From: Verrucomicrobiia bacterium
GTDB lineage: Bacteria; Verrucomicrobiota; Verrucomicrobiia; Limisphaerales; DSYF01
Assembly (NCBI GenBank): GCA_035765895.1
Contig: DASTWL010000055.1
Location: forward strand, 1-50,886
Direction of reading: 5' to 3'
Length of the DNA stretch: 50,886 nucleotides
This document shows, in pieces, positions 23,142 to 30,481 of this stretch. How positions within the stretch are numbered: the first letter of the stretch is position 1; each line of letters opens with the position of its first letter. Under the pieces are notes generated by a model. It made no database searches and was not told the origin of the DNA. It worked only from the letters and a program-made list of their open reading frames with translations. Position numbers and translations under genes: made by a program.

Positions 23142-25523
23142 ATGCGCCAATCCCCGTTCCGAAATTTTCGGACCGCCGCACCATTTTACTTCGTATTGGT
23201 CATCTCGGCCGTCGTGGTGGCCGGACGGAGTGCAGCTGAATCGAATGCGGCCTGGCAAGCACCGACGTCACTTGCGATCAGACAAGCGGGTGAACATTCA
23301 ATCCGTATCACAGTGAAACCGTCCGGATACACCAACGAGTTTCCATTTCATCCAGCCGTTGCGGAGCGAGATTATCCGTTGCCGGGGTTGATATGGCACC
23401 CTTCTTCAAATTCGGTCGCTGCAACTGTCGCCGGGTTGCACGTCAGTGTGAAGCCTGCCCCGCTCAGGGTGAGCGTGATGCGGGCGGATGGCTCGCTGGT
23501 CCAATCTCTTCAGTTCAACCCAAATGGCACAGTGACGTTCAAGCTGGATGGCCAGCCCATACTAGGTTTGGGTGAAGGCGGGCCAAAGCCGGTGCGAGGT
23601 CAGGATTGGCGTTCGCAACCCGTGCAGTTCAACCGCAACGGGGCGTATTTCAAAATGGAACCGCGCTGGCAGGGGGATATGTATGGCTCCCGCAATCCGG
23701 TGGCGATGCTCTGGGGCACAGGCGGCTGGGGATTATTCCTGCCGACACCGTGGGCGCAGGTGGACTTGCGGCAGCCGAAGCAGGGGATGTTCATACCCTG
23801 GCAACCCACCGCGGCGGACTCAGTGCCACAAACAGAGCGCAATCAAGGCTTGGCCGCGGCCAAGGGGCGACCGCCGGTGGATGGCGTCGTGCCCGGGTTG
23901 GTGGACCTGTTTCTGTTCGATGCAAAAGATCCGACTGCGGCGTTGAGAGACTTTTCATTGATCACCGGTCCGTCTGCCATGCCTCCGAAGTGGGCGCTGG
24001 GCTACATGCAGTCGCACCGCACGTTGAAGAATGATACCCAGATGCTCGACGTGATCGACACGTTTCGGAAGAAGGAAATTCCGATTGATGCGGTGATTTA
24101 CTTGGGCACCGGTTTTTGTCCGCGTGGTTGGAACACCATGCAGCCGTCATTCACTTTCAATCCGGAAGTGTTCAAACACGCCCCAAAGGCAGTGCTGGCT
24201 GAAATGCACACGAATCATGTAAAGGTCGTTCTCCACATGGTGCCCTGGGATCGCGACAGGCTGCCGACGCTGCACGGTTCCATTCCGCCGAAGCCCGGGG
24301 AAACCGTGGATTCCTCGCATATTCAGAGTTACTGGAATGAGCATATGTCGCTCGTGAACGCCGGGGTGGATGCCTTCTGGCCGGATGAAGGGGACTGGTT
24401 CGACCTGTTCGAACGGATCAAGCGGTTTCAGATGTATTTTCAGGGTGGACTACAAGCGAAGCCGGATGAACGGCCCTGGAGCCTGCAGCGAAATGGCTAT
24501 CCGGGCATCGCTCAATGGGGCGGATGGGTGTGGTCGGGCGACACAGAATCGTCCTGGAAGACGCTCGAAGCGCAGATCGCCGTCGGCCTCAATTACTCGC
24601 TTAGCATAGGTCCGTATTGGGGATCAGACATAGGCGGATTCAATCCCAATCGGGAGTTGACGGGTGAACTTTATGCACGTTGGTTTCAGTTTGGGGCATT
24701 CTGCGCCTCGTTTCGTGCCCACGGACGGGTGTGGTGGATGCGGCTGCCTTGGGCGTGGGGTGGCAAGGATCGTGGGCCGCAGGAATACGGAAACAATAAT
24801 GCGCCCCTTCCACCAGACGACCCTCGTAACATCCTGATTTCCGAGTTGAACAATCCAACGATTGAACCCGTGGTGAAAAAGTATGACGAGCTTCGTTATC
24901 AACTGATGCCCTATACCTACACCCTCGCGTGGGAGGCGCGCGAACGTGGACTGCCGCTGATGCGTGCGCTCTGGGTCTATTACCCCAAGGACAAAGTCGC
25001 CCAAGGAATGGGAACCGAATTCCTGTGGGGGCGAGACCTGCTGATTGCGCCGGTGTTCACCAAAGGCGCAACGAATCGCGATGTATATTTACCAGCCGGC
25101 GACTGGTATGACTGGTGGACCAATCAAGAAATCAAGGGCGGGCGAACTGTCTCACGCGCCGTGGATCTAGCAACGATGCCCATTTATGTCCGCGCAGGAG
25201 CCATTGTGCCAACGGATCCGGTCCGTCAATACACCACCCAGCCCGTCAGCGAGCGGACCACCATCAACATCTACCGGGGCGCAAACGGTTCTTTCACCCT
25301 CTACGAAGACGACGGAATCAGCCAGAAGTATCTGCGTGATGGCGGGCAGCAGACGAGATTCACTTGGAACGATTCAACGTCGACCCTCACGCTCGAGCAG
25401 GGCCATTCATCGGACATCGTCAAGCAAACGGCCAATCGAAGATTCCGAGTCTGCTTGCATCCCGACGGAACGTCCCGTGAGATTGTTTGGTCAGGAGAAC
25501 GACTGCAAGTTGCAGTCCCTTAG
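23142..25523 (+). CDS. Exported GH31 family glycoside hydrolase (alpha-glucosidase/alpha-xylosidase type)
   Basis: With the preferred ATG at 23142 (AAGG a few bases upstream) the product has 793 residues and opens with a signal peptide (APFYFVLVISAVVVAGRSAA). An upstream ATG at 23022 would overlap the previous stop but adds 40 residues before the signal. The (beta/alpha)8 barrel carries WALGYMQSHRTLKN, the nucleophile aspartate in DAFWPDEGDWFD (about residue 416) and the acid/base aspartate in WSGDTESSWKTLEAQI (about 467). FLWGRDLLIAPVFTKGATNR and the C-terminal beta domains (YLPAGDWYDWWTNQEI, FTLYEDDGISQKY) follow. It should act outside the cytoplasm on alpha-linked glucosides, xylosides or galactosides. 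A nearby GH63-like remnant suggests a former glycan-use locus. Confidence 0.93.
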   Translation: MRQSPFRNFRTAAPFYFVLVISAVVVAGRSAAESNAAWQAPTSLAIRQAGEHSIRITVKPSGYTNEFPFHPAVAERDYPLPGLIWHPSSNSVAATVAGLHVSVKPAPLRVSVMRADGSLVQSLQFNPNGTVTFKLDGQPILGLGEGGPKPVRGQDWRSQPVQFNRNGAYFKMEPRWQGDMYGSRNPVAMLWGTGGWGLFLPTPWAQVDLRQPKQGMFIPWQPTAADSVPQTERNQGLAAAKGRPPVDGVVPGLVDLFLFDAKDPTAALRDFSLITGPSAMPPKWALGYMQSHRTLKNDTQMLDVIDTFRKKEIPIDAVIYLGTGFCPRGWNTMQPSFTFNPEVFKHAPKAVLAEMHTNHVKVVLHMVPWDRDRLPTLHGSIPPKPGETVDSSHIQSYWNEHMSLVNAGVDAFWPDEGDWFDLFERIKRFQMYFQGGLQAKPDERPWSLQRNGYPGIAQWGGWVWSGDTESSWKTLEAQIAVGLNYSLSIGPYWGSDIGGFNPNRELTGELYARWFQFGAFCASFRAHGRVWWMRLPWAWGGKDRGPQEYGNNNAPLPPDDPRNILISELNNPTIEPVVKKYDELRYQLMPYTYTLAWEARERGLPLMRALWVYYPKDKVAQGMGTEFLWGRDLLIAPVFTKGATNRDVYLPAGDWYDWWTNQEIKGGRTVSRAVDLATMPIYVRAGAIVPTDPVRQYTTQPVSERTTINIYRGANGSFTLYEDDGISQKYLRDGGQQTRFTWNDSTSTLTLEQGHSSDIVKQTANRRFRVCLHPDGTSREIVWSGERLQVAVP

Positions 25524-25610
25524 AGCAGCATTTCGTGGCGAAGATTTGAGGGCGCACCCCAAATCTCAATAATCACGATCCTGCATCCACGGTCGGCCCG
25601 TGGTTCTTGG

Positions 25611-25870
25611 GTGAACCTGTCTTTTCCGTGCACAAGGAGTGACGGTCGGATCGGAAAGCGAAGTCTAGCAGAAAACAAGGCGCGGGAGAAGAATTGGAGC
25701 CGCTGGGGCACTTGTCTTCCTGAACACCAGTGGGGAACCGCCCTTGAAGATTACTCTGGCAACCAGGAAAGCTGGAAGTCTTTCCCTCATGATCAGGCTC
25801 GCATCCGCGCGTATCATTGGGCGATGGTGGATTAATGGGCTGGACCGACCGGGAACCGCATGAGCACAGG
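25611..25870 (+). pseudogene. N-terminal remnant of a GH63/MGH1-like glucosidase
   Basis: The frame 25611-25835 contains REKNWSRWGTCLPEHQWGTA and LEDYSGNQESWKSFPHDQAR, followed by IRAYHWAMVD and a stop. This closely matches the conserved opening of the large MGH1-like (GH63-related) glucosidases (RKKNWKRWGPYLSERQWGTV in typical members). After the stop, family-like sequence continues briefly in another frame (GDGGLMGWTDRE, about 25823-25858) and then vanishes. Several hundred residues are missing, so this is a scrap and not a gene. The assignment is from memory of the family. Confidence 0.6.
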
Positions 25871-25969
25871 GGTTCCGATCTGAATGTGGGTTTGAATCTC
25901 AACAAGGTTGCATCGCCAACGCCGGGTTGAATGATTGAATCCCGTTAGAATTCTATCCACATTGCACTG
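25871..25969. other. Leader of the ECF42 gene, no motif recognised
   Basis: This is the last part of the 446-bp gap between the GH31 stop and the sigma-factor start. I see no TGTC-N19-CGWC site, no hairpin and no coding frame. The promoter of the sigma gene is therefore not of the ECF type found downstream. Confidence 0.4.
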
Positions 25970-27229
25970 GTGTCGGAAATCCCAATTGAAAAGGTCCGGG
26001 GAATTCTGGATTCCCTGTATCGCGCGGAGTTCGGCCGCATTCTCGCCACGCTCATCCGATTGCTTGGCGATTTCGATCTGGCCGAGGACGCCGTGCAAGA
26101 TGCCTTTACCGCGGCCTTGGAACGGTGGCCACACGATGGCGTGCCGGCCAATCCCCGCGCCTGGTTGATTTCCACCGGACGGTTCAAAGCCATCGATGCG
26201 CTGCGTCGGCGCGCACGATTCGATGCAGCCCAGGAGGCGATTGCTGAACAACTGGAACCGGGAACGGGCGATGCAGCGCTTGAGACGGACGATGGCATTA
26301 AAGACGACCAGTTGCGGCTCATCTTCACCTGCTGCCATCCCGCACTCGCGCCGGAGGCTCGCGTGGCATTGACCTTGCGGGAAGTCTGTGGTCTGACGAC
26401 CGAGGAAATCGCCCGCGCATTCCTCACGGCGGCACCTACGCTTGCCCAACGGATTGTGCGGGCCAAGGCGAAGATTCGTGACGCCAGAATTCCTTATCAG
26501 GTGCCATCGGTGGAGGAACTGCCCGACCGCTTGGATGCGGTGCTGCAAGTGGTCTATCTGGTTTTCAACGAGGGTTATTCAGCATCGTCGGGCACATCGC
26601 TGACGCGGGCAGAACTTTCAGCGGAAGCCATCCGGCTCGGACGATTGCTGTTGGAGTTATTGCCTGAACCGGAGGTGAGGGGATTGCTCGCGCTGATGCT
26701 CTTGCAGGAATCGCGGCGGGCAGCCAGAACTTCGCCGTCCGGTGAACTGGTTCTTTTGGAGAATCAAGACCGCTCGTTATGGGATCGCGAAAAGATCGCG
26801 GAGGGGGTGAAACTGGTTGAACGGGCATTATTGTCGCGTCGGTTTGGCCCTTACACGCTTCAGGCGGCGATCGCGGCGGTGCATGCCGAAGCATCCGAAG
26901 CTGCGGCAACAGACTGGCCCCAAATCGTAGCGCTTTACAGCGTCCTTGCACGGGCTGACCCCTCGCCGGTTATCGAACTGAATCGCGCCGTGGCCGTGGC
27001 GATGCGCGACGGACCGGAGGCGGGATTGGCGCTGATTGATGCCATTTTCGCGCGTGGTGAGTTGATGGAATATCACCTGGCACACTCGGCCCGGGCAGAT
27101 TTGTGCCGCCAATTGGACAGAAATGACGAGGCCCGTTCTTCCTACCAGCGTGCCTTGTCGCTCGCGCGACAAGAATCGGAACAACGTTTCCTCAAAACCC
27201 GGCTTCAGGAATTGGACGAAAAAAAGTGA
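25970..27229 (+). CDS. ECF42-type RNA polymerase sigma factor with C-terminal TPR-like domain
   Basis: A 419-residue protein starting at GTG 25970. Region sigma-2 lies at about 15-85 (LGDFDLAEDAVQDAFTAALE, PRAWLISTGRFKAIDALRRR) and sigma-4 at about 115-175 (LREVCGLTTEEIARAFLTAA, then LAQRIVRAKAKIRDARIPYQ). A helical C-terminal region of some 230 residues follows (YLVFNEGYSASSGTSLTRAE, LNRAVAVAMRDGPEAGLALI, LDRNDEARSSYQRALSLARQ). That long TPR-like/DUF6596 tail and the neighbouring DGPF genes define ECF42. No anti-sigma gene is present; in this group the tail is thought to be needed for activity. Its stop is 8 bp before an ECF42-like promoter that should drive the DGPF operon. Confidence 0.92.
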   Translation: MSEIPIEKVRGILDSLYRAEFGRILATLIRLLGDFDLAEDAVQDAFTAALERWPHDGVPANPRAWLISTGRFKAIDALRRRARFDAAQEAIAEQLEPGTGDAALETDDGIKDDQLRLIFTCCHPALAPEARVALTLREVCGLTTEEIARAFLTAAPTLAQRIVRAKAKIRDARIPYQVPSVEELPDRLDAVLQVVYLVFNEGYSASSGTSLTRAELSAEAIRLGRLLLELLPEPEVRGLLALMLLQESRRAARTSPSGELVLLENQDRSLWDREKIAEGVKLVERALLSRRFGPYTLQAAIAAVHAEASEAAATDWPQIVALYSVLARADPSPVIELNRAVAVAMRDGPEAGLALIDAIFARGELMEYHLAHSARADLCRQLDRNDEARSSYQRALSLARQESEQRFLKTRLQELDEKK

Positions 27230-27236
27230 GGAGCAC

Positions 27237-27263
27237 TGTCGAATTACGCCAAACCCAATCGAC
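27237..27263 (+). promoter_or_regulatory. Predicted ECF42-dependent promoter of the DGPF operon
   Basis: TGTCGA (27237-27242), then 17 nt, then CGAC (27260-27263). The ECF42 consensus I recall from Streptomyces work is TGTCGA in the -35 region and CG(A/T)C in the -10 region. Measured from TGTC the spacing is N19, the same as the other two sites in this window. It lies between the sigma gene stop and the first DGPF gene, leaving a leader of about 60 nt before ATG 27332. Confidence 0.7.
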
Positions 27264-27331
27264 AAGTTGATGAATGGCCACAGGCCGCAACAACAAAACG
27301 AACAGAACAAACAAAGCAACAGCACAAAACC

Positions 27332-27813: not shown

Positions 27814-28224
27814 ATGAAATACATCTGCCTTGGTTATATCGAACCGAACAAGTTTGAATCGATGTCTGAAAGTGAGCGCAACACGATGTTGGATGAATGC
27901 TTCACCTACGACAACGAGTTGCGGAGGAACGGGCACTTCGCTGGCGGTGAGGCGTTACAGCCCCCGCAGACGGCCACAACCTTGCGCTGGAAAAACGGCA
28001 AAGTGTCCATTACGGACGGCCCCTATGCCGAGACGAAGGAACAAATCGGGGGCATTCTCATTCTTGAAGCTCGAGACCTGAATCACGCCATCCAGTTGAT
28101 GTCAAAACATCCCGGTGTGAAAGCCGGGCCGTTCGAGATACGTCCCGCTGCGGACCTGACTGACATGATCAGCGAAAGTGAACAGCGACGTGTGAACGCA
28201 AGTCAGGGATTCGGAAGGAGGTAA
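27814..28224 (+). CDS. DGPF-domain (YCII-related) protein 2
   Basis: A 136-residue paralogue of the preceding gene, with DGPY at 68-71 in [20 protein letters not shown]. It starts [17 protein letters not shown], the more common form of ECF42-linked DGPF proteins, whereas its neighbour starts MKFLMMM. Two DGPF proteins of different subtypes next to one ECF42 gene is a usual arrangement. It is probably cotranscribed with protein 1 from the site at 27237. The IS3 remnant begins within about 75 bp of its stop, so any former downstream operon members may have been lost. Confidence 0.92.
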
Positions 28225-28297: not shown

Positions 28298-28504
28298 GTT
28301 ATCGAATCGTGCTACGACAACGCGCTGATGGAAAGCTTCTGGAGCACCCTCAAGTGCGGCTTGGTCCATCGCACGCACTTTGCCACCCGCGCCCAGGCGC
28401 GGGCGGCGATCTTTGAATGGATTGAAATCTTTTACAACCGGGAGCGGCTCCACAGCGCCCTCGGCTACCAATCCCCTGTGGACTTTGAAACCCAACTAAA
28501 CTAA
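28298..28504 (+). mobile_element. 3' remnant of an IS3-family transposase gene
   Basis: A frame ending at the stop 28504 encodes IESCYDNALMESFWSTLK, then VHRTHFATRAQARAAIFEWI and FYNRERLHSALGYQSPVDFE. This is the C-terminal end of an IS3-type integrase, including the last catalytic glutamate in ALMES. There is no start codon, no N-terminal catalytic domain, no orfA and no recognisable inverted repeats. Only about 68 codons are left. It lies between the DGPF operon and the cupin gene and marks past insertion followed by deletion. Confidence 0.88.
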
Positions 28505-28593
28505 AAACAAACAACCCAATGCCTCATGCATTCACCACCTGTCCACCGAATCGAGGCAAGGCCAGTCTCATCAAGCACGAAAGCACAACCATC

Positions 28594-29058
28594 ATGAAAA
28601 CATTCCAGGGCTACCAACTCATCGCCCCCGACGACCTGCACTGGCGGCCGTCGAACCTGATGCGCATCCCGAACGCGGATTTTCTGGAGCGCACGGGCAG
28701 CGAGAATCTCAGCGCGCGACTTTGGCGGCTGCCGCCGAAAAGCGCCAACACGCTGCACAAGCACATCCGGCAGGAGGAATTTTATTTCGTGCTCGAAGGC
28801 ACGGGCCGCATGCGCGTGGGCGAGGAGACGTTGACGGTTCCCAAACACGGCGGCGTGCTGGTCGGCCCGGATCAGTTGCGACAGGTTTTCAACGACACCG
28901 ACGCGGACGTGCTCTGGCTCATCGTTGGCGCGCCGGAAGAACTGGAATTTCTGCAAGGCTCCAAGTCCACCGACATGGATTTGAAACTCATCTATCCGAC
29001 CGATCCAACGCAACTGCCCAAGGAACTCGCCGGCGTATCATGGCCGCCAAAGGCGTGA
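28594..29058 (+). CDS. Small cupin-domain protein
   Basis: A 154-residue single-domain cupin. The double-stranded beta-helix motifs are LPPKSANTLHKHIRQEEFYFVLEG (motif 1, with H, H, E as metal ligands) and HGGVLVGPDQLRQVFN (motif 2; the usual histidine is not obvious, Q or N in its place). It may bind a metal and a small ligand; no reaction can be named. ATG 28594 is preferred over 28519 because the extra 25 residues lie outside the fold. The start is preceded by AGCACAACCATC, not a Shine-Dalgarno sequence. It lies between the two ECF modules, with the ECF41-type promoter beginning 45 bp after its stop. Confidence 0.85.
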   Translation: MKTFQGYQLIAPDDLHWRPSNLMRIPNADFLERTGSENLSARLWRLPPKSANTLHKHIRQEEFYFVLEGTGRMRVGEETLTVPKHGGVLVGPDQLRQVFNDTDADVLWLIVGAPEELEFLQGSKSTDMDLKLIYPTDPTQLPKELAGVSWPPKA

Positions 29059-29102
29059 GTTTGTCCGCGTTCGTTTCGAACGTCGCAAAAAGAATCCGGT
29101 TT

Positions 29103-29129
29103 TGTCACAGCCGCGGCGGCTGGTTCGTC
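29103..29129 (+). promoter_or_regulatory. Predicted ECF41-dependent promoter of the CMD-sigma operon
   Basis: TGTCACA (29103-29109), a 16-nt spacer, then CGTC (29126-29129). This equals the ECF41 promoter consensus TGTCACA-N16-CGTC as I recall it from published work on Bacillus and Rhodobacter ECF41 proteins. It stands 10 nt before ATG 29140 of the partner gene, so the transcript would be nearly leaderless. The sigma gene would thereby activate its own operon. Confidence 0.82.
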
Positions 29130-29139
29130 TTCCTTGGTG

Positions 29140-29610
29140 ATGAAAACAAATATTGCCAATCTAAACGAACCGCGTCTGAACTATCGCAAAGTGTCGCCGA
29201 CCGTGTTGCAAGCCTTGTGGGGCGTGGAAAAGGCCGTGAACGAAAGCGGGCTGGAAAGTTCCTTGCAGGAACTGGTCAAGCTGCGCGCGTCGCAACTCAA
29301 CGGCTGCGCCTTTTGCATTGATATGCACTATCGCGATGCCCTCAAGGCCGGCGAGGCGGAACAACGCTTGTTTCTGTTGAATGCGTGGGAGGAAGCGCCG
29401 GTTTACACGCCGCGCGAACGGGCGGCGTTGCGCTGGACGGAAGCGCTGACCAAGCTGGCCGGGAATAGTGTCAGCGAGGAACTTTACGAAGCCGTGCGCG
29501 CGGAATTTTCCGAAACCGAACTGGTGAGCCTCACGCTGGCCGTGGTGGCGATCAATAGTTGGAACCGTTTTAGTGTGGGCTTCCGCGTGCCGCCCGGGTT
29601 TACTTTGTGA
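29140..29610 (+). CDS. Carboxymuconolactone decarboxylase-like/AhpD-fold protein (ECF41 partner)
   Basis: A 156-residue all-helical AhpD/CMD-fold protein. The redox-type site GCAFCIDMHYRDALKAGE has cysteines at 56 and 59 and a histidine at 63, as in AhpD-like peroxidase-coupled proteins. It may reduce or scavenge reactive species using a thiol relay. Genes of this family (with oxidoreductases and epimerases, the so-called COE proteins) are the hallmark neighbours and targets of ECF41 sigma factors. ATG 29140 is chosen; in-frame TTG 29134 and GTG 29137 lie inside the predicted transcription start region. Its stop is 4 bp before the sigma start, so the two form an operon. Confidence 0.92.
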   Translation: MKTNIANLNEPRLNYRKVSPTVLQALWGVEKAVNESGLESSLQELVKLRASQLNGCAFCIDMHYRDALKAGEAEQRLFLLNAWEEAPVYTPRERAALRWTEALTKLAGNSVSEELYEAVRAEFSETELVSLTLAVVAINSWNRFSVGFRVPPGFTL

Positions 29611-29614
29611 CGCC

Positions 29615-30481
29615 ATGATCGAATCGTTCAACGCACATCGCGGCCAGTTGTTCGGCATCGCCTATCGGATGCTGGGCAGCGTGGCCGAGGCGGACGACCT
29701 GGTGCAGGAGACGTGGCTGCGCTGGCAGAAGCAGGATTTAGAAAAAGTGTCTTCGCCCAAGGCTTGGTTGATTGCCACGATCACGCGGCTGTGCATTGAT
29801 CAACTGCGGTCCGCGCGGCGCCAGCGCGAGGAATATTACGGCGTCTGGCTGCCGGAACCGCTGGTGGAAAACGCGCCCGCGTCGCCGGAAAATTCGGCGA
29901 TGATTGCGGAGTCGTTGACGATGGCGTTCATGCTGTTGCTCGAAACGCTCGACCCGGTGGAACGCGCGGTCTTCGTGCTACGCGAGGCATTTGATTACGA
30001 TTACGCGGACATCGCCGCCATCGTGGGCAAGAGCGAAGCGAACTGCCGCCAGATCGTGCGGCGCTCCAAACTGCAACTGGCCACGCCGCCCGTGGCGACC
30101 GCTCCGAGCGAGTGCGCGCGGCGCGTGGTGGAGAAATTCATGGCCGCCGCGGCGGGCGGCGAAGTGCGTGACTTGCTGGCTTTGCTGACCGCGGATGCGA
30201 CGCTGTATTCCGACGGCGGCGGACGCGTTTCTGCGGCGGGTCGGCCGATTCACAGCGCGGATCACATCAGCCGGTTTTTCGTCGGCATTCGCGATCGTCA
30301 GCCGGCGGATGTGGCGTTGCGCTTCGTGGCCATCAATGGCCGGCCGGGCGTGTTGATGAGCAGCGGCGGACACATTTTCAACGCGGTTTCGTTCGACTTG
30401 GACGACGAACGGGTTCGCGCTATTTACATCGTGCGCAATCCGGAAAAGTTGAAACATCTGCCGCCCGTGGCGAACAACTGA
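29615..30481 (+). CDS. ECF41-type sigma factor (SigJ-like) with SnoaL-like C-terminal domain
   Basis: A 288-residue protein. Sigma-2 is at about 5-70 (FGIAYRMLGSVAEADDLVQE) and sigma-4 at about 105-155 (LREAFDYDYADIAAIVGKSE). A SnoaL/NTF2-like domain of about 120 residues follows. The three ECF41 signature motifs are all present: WLPEP at 78-82 in the linker, DGGGR at 200-204, and NPEKL near 274 (usually NPDKL). In this group the fused tail replaces an anti-sigma factor and both supports and restrains activity. ATG 29615 fits the family start. It lies between the CMD gene and the ICL/PEPM gene with 4 and 3 bp gaps. Confidence 0.95.
   Translation: MIESFNAHRGQLFGIAYRMLGSVAEADDLVQETWLRWQKQDLEKVSSPKAWLIATITRLCIDQLRSARRQREEYYGVWLPEPLVENAPASPENSAMIAESLTMAFMLLLETLDPVERAVFVLREAFDYDYADIAAIVGKSEANCRQIVRRSKLQLATPPVATAPSECARRVVEKFMAAAAGGEVRDLLALLTADATLYSDGGGRVSAAGRPIHSADHISRFFVGIRDRQPADVALRFVAINGRPGVLMSSGGHIFNAVSFDLDDERVRAIYIVRNPEKLKHLPPVANN

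Follow-up and report, generated by a model that had tools for sequence, protein, structure and literature searches.

What transcribes a pair of DGPF genes standing directly behind the gene of a sigma factor, and does that sigma factor also act upon itself? The question is raised by a locus in a stretch of 50,886 nucleotides from a Verrucomicrobiia bacterium, the whole of which we call the window. A first inspection of the DNA (the sequence-only reading) had noticed TGTCGA-N17-CGAC at positions 27237–27263 of the plus strand, taken it for a promoter of the type used by ECF42 sigma factors, and proposed a feed-forward design. We conclude, with a probability of about nine in ten, that an ECF42-dependent promoter for the DGPF pair has its core in this segment. 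Core, spacer, flanks and position, as they recur in relatives from many phyla, support the assignment, and so does the spacer of mapped promoters of RpoE10. The design, by contrast, has to be redrawn.

The site and its surroundings

The features that matter here are the following:

25970–27229, plus strand: ECF42-type sigma gene, 419 aa, GTG start (Pfam and AlphaFold2 model)
27219–27224, plus strand: A6 tract, UP-element-like (A 63% vs 27% background in 38 relatives' sites)
27237–27242, plus strand: −35 element TGTCGA, read directly, recurring in relatives
27255–27256, plus strand: conserved CC inside the 17-nt spacer (C at 82–84% among relatives)
27260–27263, plus strand: −10 element CGAC, read directly, recurring in relatives
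27271–27274, plus strand: initiation region with the conserved TGAA, predicted start at G27272
27332–27775, plus strand: DGPF/YCII gene 1, 147 aa, predicted target (PF03795, E=4.8e-20)
27814–28224, plus strand: DGPF/YCII gene 2, 136 aa, predicted target (PF03795, E=8.3e-20)

The motif is present where it had been seen, and reads TGTCGAATTACGCCAAACCCAATCGAC. It begins 7 bp (GGAGCAC) after the sigma stop codon (TGA, 27227–27229), one less than the 8 bp first counted, and its last base lies 68 bp 5′ of the first DGPF ATG, ahead of both DGPF genes as had been claimed. It conforms to the general pattern TGTCG[AG]-N17-CG[AT]C of ECF42-dependent promoters. The A6 tract, 13–18 nt 5′ of the −35 hexamer, overlaps the final sigma codons. 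No RNA structure was found over the sigma–DGPF junction (z = −0.9).

How easily might such a motif arise by accident? A genome-wide scan, suggested as a check by the sequence-only reading, was run by pattern: in the 4.64-Mb genome the exact TGTCGA-N17-CGAC occurs in four further places, whence a chance of about 5e-5 of meeting it in this 103-bp gap on this strand. All four are overlapped by long open frames; none was accepted as a promoter, and a wider regulon built upon them was rejected. Looser patterns gave no excess genome-wide (41 matches vs 67 in a reversed control). Scored with a matrix, the site (23.3) outranks every other place of the window, whichever strand is taken. This value is at the bottom of the range found in relatives (23.0–34.8), mainly because spacer positions differ and because an A rather than a T follows CGAC.

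The sigma factor and its YCII neighbours

The sigma protein is of the ECF42 kind in all the traits considered. Its sigma domains are sigma2 and sigma4 only (Sigma70_r2, PF04542, residues 16–83; Sigma70_r4_2, PF08281, residues 118–169), and Pfam also finds DUF6596 (PF20239). In the AlphaFold2 model, residues 184–417 make helical hairpins; this C-terminal extension, some 200 residues long, is predicted to have a TPR-like fold. A Foldseek search of the model against the PDB matched both TPR proteins and ECF sigma factors; the best TPR match (E 8e-4 over the whole model) has a low TM-score, so that it speaks for the fold class only. Two YCII genes lie directly 3′, and no anti-sigma gene is adjacent: among the downstream neighbours scanned with Pfam (YCII, YCII, cupin, CMD, ECF41, PEP mutase, GNAT) no anti-sigma family appears, while upstream the genes were viewed as open reading frames only.

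The two YCII proteins carry TDGPF and TDGPY, respectively. Their genes, 38 nt apart, were assigned to the same operon, and the second lacks a separate ECF42 site. At 28300–28505, behind DGPF gene 2 and ahead of the cupin gene, the remnant of an integrase-core transposase end was recognized by eye (MESFWSTLKCGLVHRTHF...RERLHSALGYQSPVDFE), and the 3′ end of the operon may have been rearranged.

Directly downstream stands another module (28519–30481), of the ECF41 type, consisting of a cupin gene, a CMD gene (CxxC) and the gene of a SigJ-like ECF41 sigma factor (29573–30481). A TGTCACA-N16-CGTC at 29103–29129 lies 10 bp before the CMD ATG (29140), with the spacing of the Sinorhizobium meliloti RpoE9 promoter. 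In these adjoining systems the ECF42 promoter comes after its sigma gene, the ECF41 promoter before.

A site that recurs with its flanks

The sequence-only reading had also proposed an alignment of the regions upstream of DGPF genes from related genomes. Named genomes supplied 80 ECF42 loci, and genomes of the same order another 40; a later set of 40 loci from the same phylum was kept out of pattern-forming, but has kinship to the first. Overall the survey covers 122 ECF42 loci and the 40 later ones. On the sense strand of the loci fetched first, TGTCG[AG]-N-CG[AT]C gives 75 sites at N17 vs 2–19 at other spacers, and only 9 on the antisense strand at N17. Where the sigma gene comes first, as judged from the position of YCII alone, an ECF42-type site follows its stop codon in 37/37 loci of the first set, typically within 100 bp, and in none of these 37 does one precede the sigma gene; on the antisense strand, taken as a control, the figure is 1/37. 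The later set agrees (12/12, all N17), with eight exact sites, of which one has CGTC at its end, and four with one mismatch (L216, L218, L219 and L221). Taken together, all 49 sigma-first loci, from many phyla, have the site after the sigma stop, 45 of them exactly and 4 with one mismatch. In loci that begin with DGPF, the site lies ahead of DGPF in 51 of 58, and sigma is then downstream of it.

Conservation is not limited to the core. The aligned sites of the relatives have in common an A-tract (−18 to −13 relative to the −35 hexamer), CC at spacer positions 13–14 and TGAA at 34–37, the second position of which is a purine in 38/38. The window has AAAAAA, CC and TGAA, all in register. In its closest relatives (L145, L141, L028) the element is kept while the interior of the spacer has changed. 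Some loci, in Acidobacteria, Nitrospira and a few others, have TGTCGA and CGAC separated by N16, not N17 (L030, L033, L034, L035, L037, L048, L051, L055, L064, L066, L081).

This recurrence bears upon the other ways in which the site might be explained. The DGPF genes could be transcribed solely by readthrough from the sigma gene, the motif being accidental or a relic. The genes are indeed on the same strand, with a gap of about 102 bp and no terminator-like site between the sigma gene and DGPF gene 1, so that readthrough as such may take place. As the only source of DGPF transcripts it is very unlikely, since motif, N17 and flanks are found again in all 49 sigma-first loci, and since the motif would be expected in this gap with a chance as low as that given above. 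Slightly less probable still is that the site serves mainly another sigma factor, be it a second ECF42 encoded on contig C72 of the same genome or the ECF41 neighbour. All three proteins would recognize a −35 of the TGTC type and a −10 of the CGNC type, but the clade of the C72 protein has sites of the form TGTCC[TCA]-N17-CGTC, those of ECF41 read TGTCAC[A]-N15/16-CGTC (PMC3426412, PMC6180224), and the ECF41 neighbour has a site of its own type before its own CMD gene. Least likely of all is the operator of a dimeric repressor, or a two-way promoter, at the perfect 6-bp inverted repeat TGTCGA-N16-TCGACA: the minus strand too reads TGTCGA-N17-CGAC (27264–27238), but scores 15.6 vs 23.3, the symmetry exists in few loci only (the window, L055, L101, L171) with a second arm that is not conserved, and the spacer CC, the A-tract and TGAA are conserved and directional, which favours a promoter over an operator.

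How the promoter would work

On the reading as an ECF42 promoter, RNA polymerase carrying the adjacent sigma factor would bind at 27237–27263, sigma4 contacting TGTCGA and sigma2 contacting CGAC, with the A6 tract presumably aiding the binding. Transcription would begin at about G27272, the ninth base after CGAC, and yield a transcript with a 5′ leader of some 60 nt spanning both DGPF genes. That the adjacent sigma factor is the user of the site, and the exact start, we infer. Being located 5′ of this promoter and having no site of its own, the sigma gene would not be activated through it by its product. The output of the sigma factor would be set instead by a different promoter and, if studied ECF42 proteins are a guide, by the TPR extension. 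The latter has been suggested to be required for activity, and YCII proteins may join in control (reviews PMC8999054, PMC9023288). If they do, the circuit could include feedback among proteins, through the DGPF products.

A proposed open cascade

The absence of a similar site before the sigma gene, which had been noted at the outset, is borne out: positions 25400–25990 are empty at ≤2 mismatches and with spacers of 15–19, the best matrix score in this interval being −4.0 vs 23.3 for 27237–27263. This is general, as TGTCGA-N17-CGAC (≤1 mismatch) is found in the 300 bp before sigma in 0/49 sigma-first loci. It suggests that the sigma gene is under other control. No promoter or regulator driving it by other means was identified: no motif is shared upstream of the sigma genes in the 49 loci, and a search for Sigma-70-like promoters before the window's sigma gene did not exceed shuffles, its single weak match lying at 25546. 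Here we part with the feed-forward label, because such a loop needs an upstream regulator acting on the DGPF genes too. An open cascade, without autoregulation, fits instead and is the simplest reading of the sigma–DGPF circuit.

Comparison with known systems

A counterpart with mapped promoters is RpoE10 of S. meliloti, an ECF42 factor with a TPR extension adjoining a YCII gene. These promoters (SMb20475, SMc01149 and SMc01151) read TGTCGG-N17-CGTC, with the spacer counted from the published table, and for SMc01149 two methods place the start on the ninth base behind CGTC (PMC6180224). TGTCGR, N17 and CGNC are therefore common to both systems, the offset of the start equals that predicted for G27272, and there is no evidence of sigma self-activation there either. 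The differences are that in S. meliloti YCII precedes sigma, that the −35 is TGTCGG and the −10 CGTC, and that the targets are partly elsewhere. In Streptomyces venezuelae, which belongs to another phylum, the ECF42 motif is said to be TGTCGA / CGA(T)C. The ECF42 sigma factors of that organism (Sven_0747, Sven_4377, Sven_7131) resemble ours in having a TPR extension at the C terminus and YCII genes as conserved neighbours, according to PMC8999054.

Nearer at hand, Brevifollis gellanilyticus (L028) and other Verrucomicrobiota (L141, L145, L211–L213) have the same order of sigma gene, promoter and two DGPF genes, with sigma proteins 75–83% identical to that of the window; they differ only in the interior of the spacer and in flanking distance, the site of L028, TGTCGAATTCCGAATCTGCCAATCGAC, being 29 bp 3′ of the sigma stop. 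Like the present one, ECF41 systems (PMC3426412) have an ECF sigma factor to which a regulatory domain is fused, one local target and a TGTC / CGTC promoter, and their gene orders are similarly varied. They differ from it by a SnoaL-like domain in place of TPR, a −35 of TGTCACA, and CMD, oxidoreductase or epimerase targets. The reading of the locus as an ordinary ECF42 module is well supported; it is a good example of a circuit type already known in bacteria.

Two promoter codes in one genome

The second ECF42 sigma gene, on contig C72, has a YCII gene in front of it. Near it are three sites, TGTCCA, TGTCCC and TGTCCT, each followed by N17 and CGTC; in this locus (L005, C72:8000–24000) they precede a pair of YCII genes as well as a glyoxalase-like gene that starts at 6995 of L005. 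Genome-wide, TGTCCN-N17-CGTCGT has three matches only, two of which are the TGTCCA and TGTCCC sites of C72. In a tree of the 122 sigma factors, clade I, with the window protein, goes with TGTCGA/CGAC (71 loci have that class alone), and clade II, with the C72 protein, goes with TGTCC/CGTC (18 loci). The class of the motif follows the clade (71:0 vs 0:18), no locus having the motif of the other clade alone; the Fisher value of 3e-19 ignores kinship and rests in effect on one or a few splits.

Within the recognition helix, a single residue separates the classes fully, Q160 in clade I vs K160 in clade II (73:0, 0:18). It aligns with S172 of Escherichia coli sigma-E. Many other residues separate the two clades too, so the role of Q160/K160 is put forward as a hypothesis only. 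On balance, we lean slightly towards the view that the sigma4 recognition helix, through this residue, largely sets the split, together with changes in sigma2, and that a single genome would harbour two insulated ECF42–DGPF circuits.

The related genome G108 also carries both types. In all three of its ECF42 loci (L141, L145, L148) sigma stands before DGPF; the site is TGTCGA/CGAC in two of them and TGTCCT/CGTC in the third. Outside the order, loci resembling clade II (L235, L239, L242, L245, L246, L249) often show a third variant, TGTCC-N18-CGTTG, before DGPF.

What the locus offers

The ECF42 group is widespread, and here the target promoter is cleanly separate from the sigma gene, which makes it possible to measure output free of autoregulation. 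The pairing of two codes within one genome, a side result, is of more interest than the module itself: two ECF42 clades facing different promoters make a testable hypothesis of specificity, and possibly a source of orthogonal parts.
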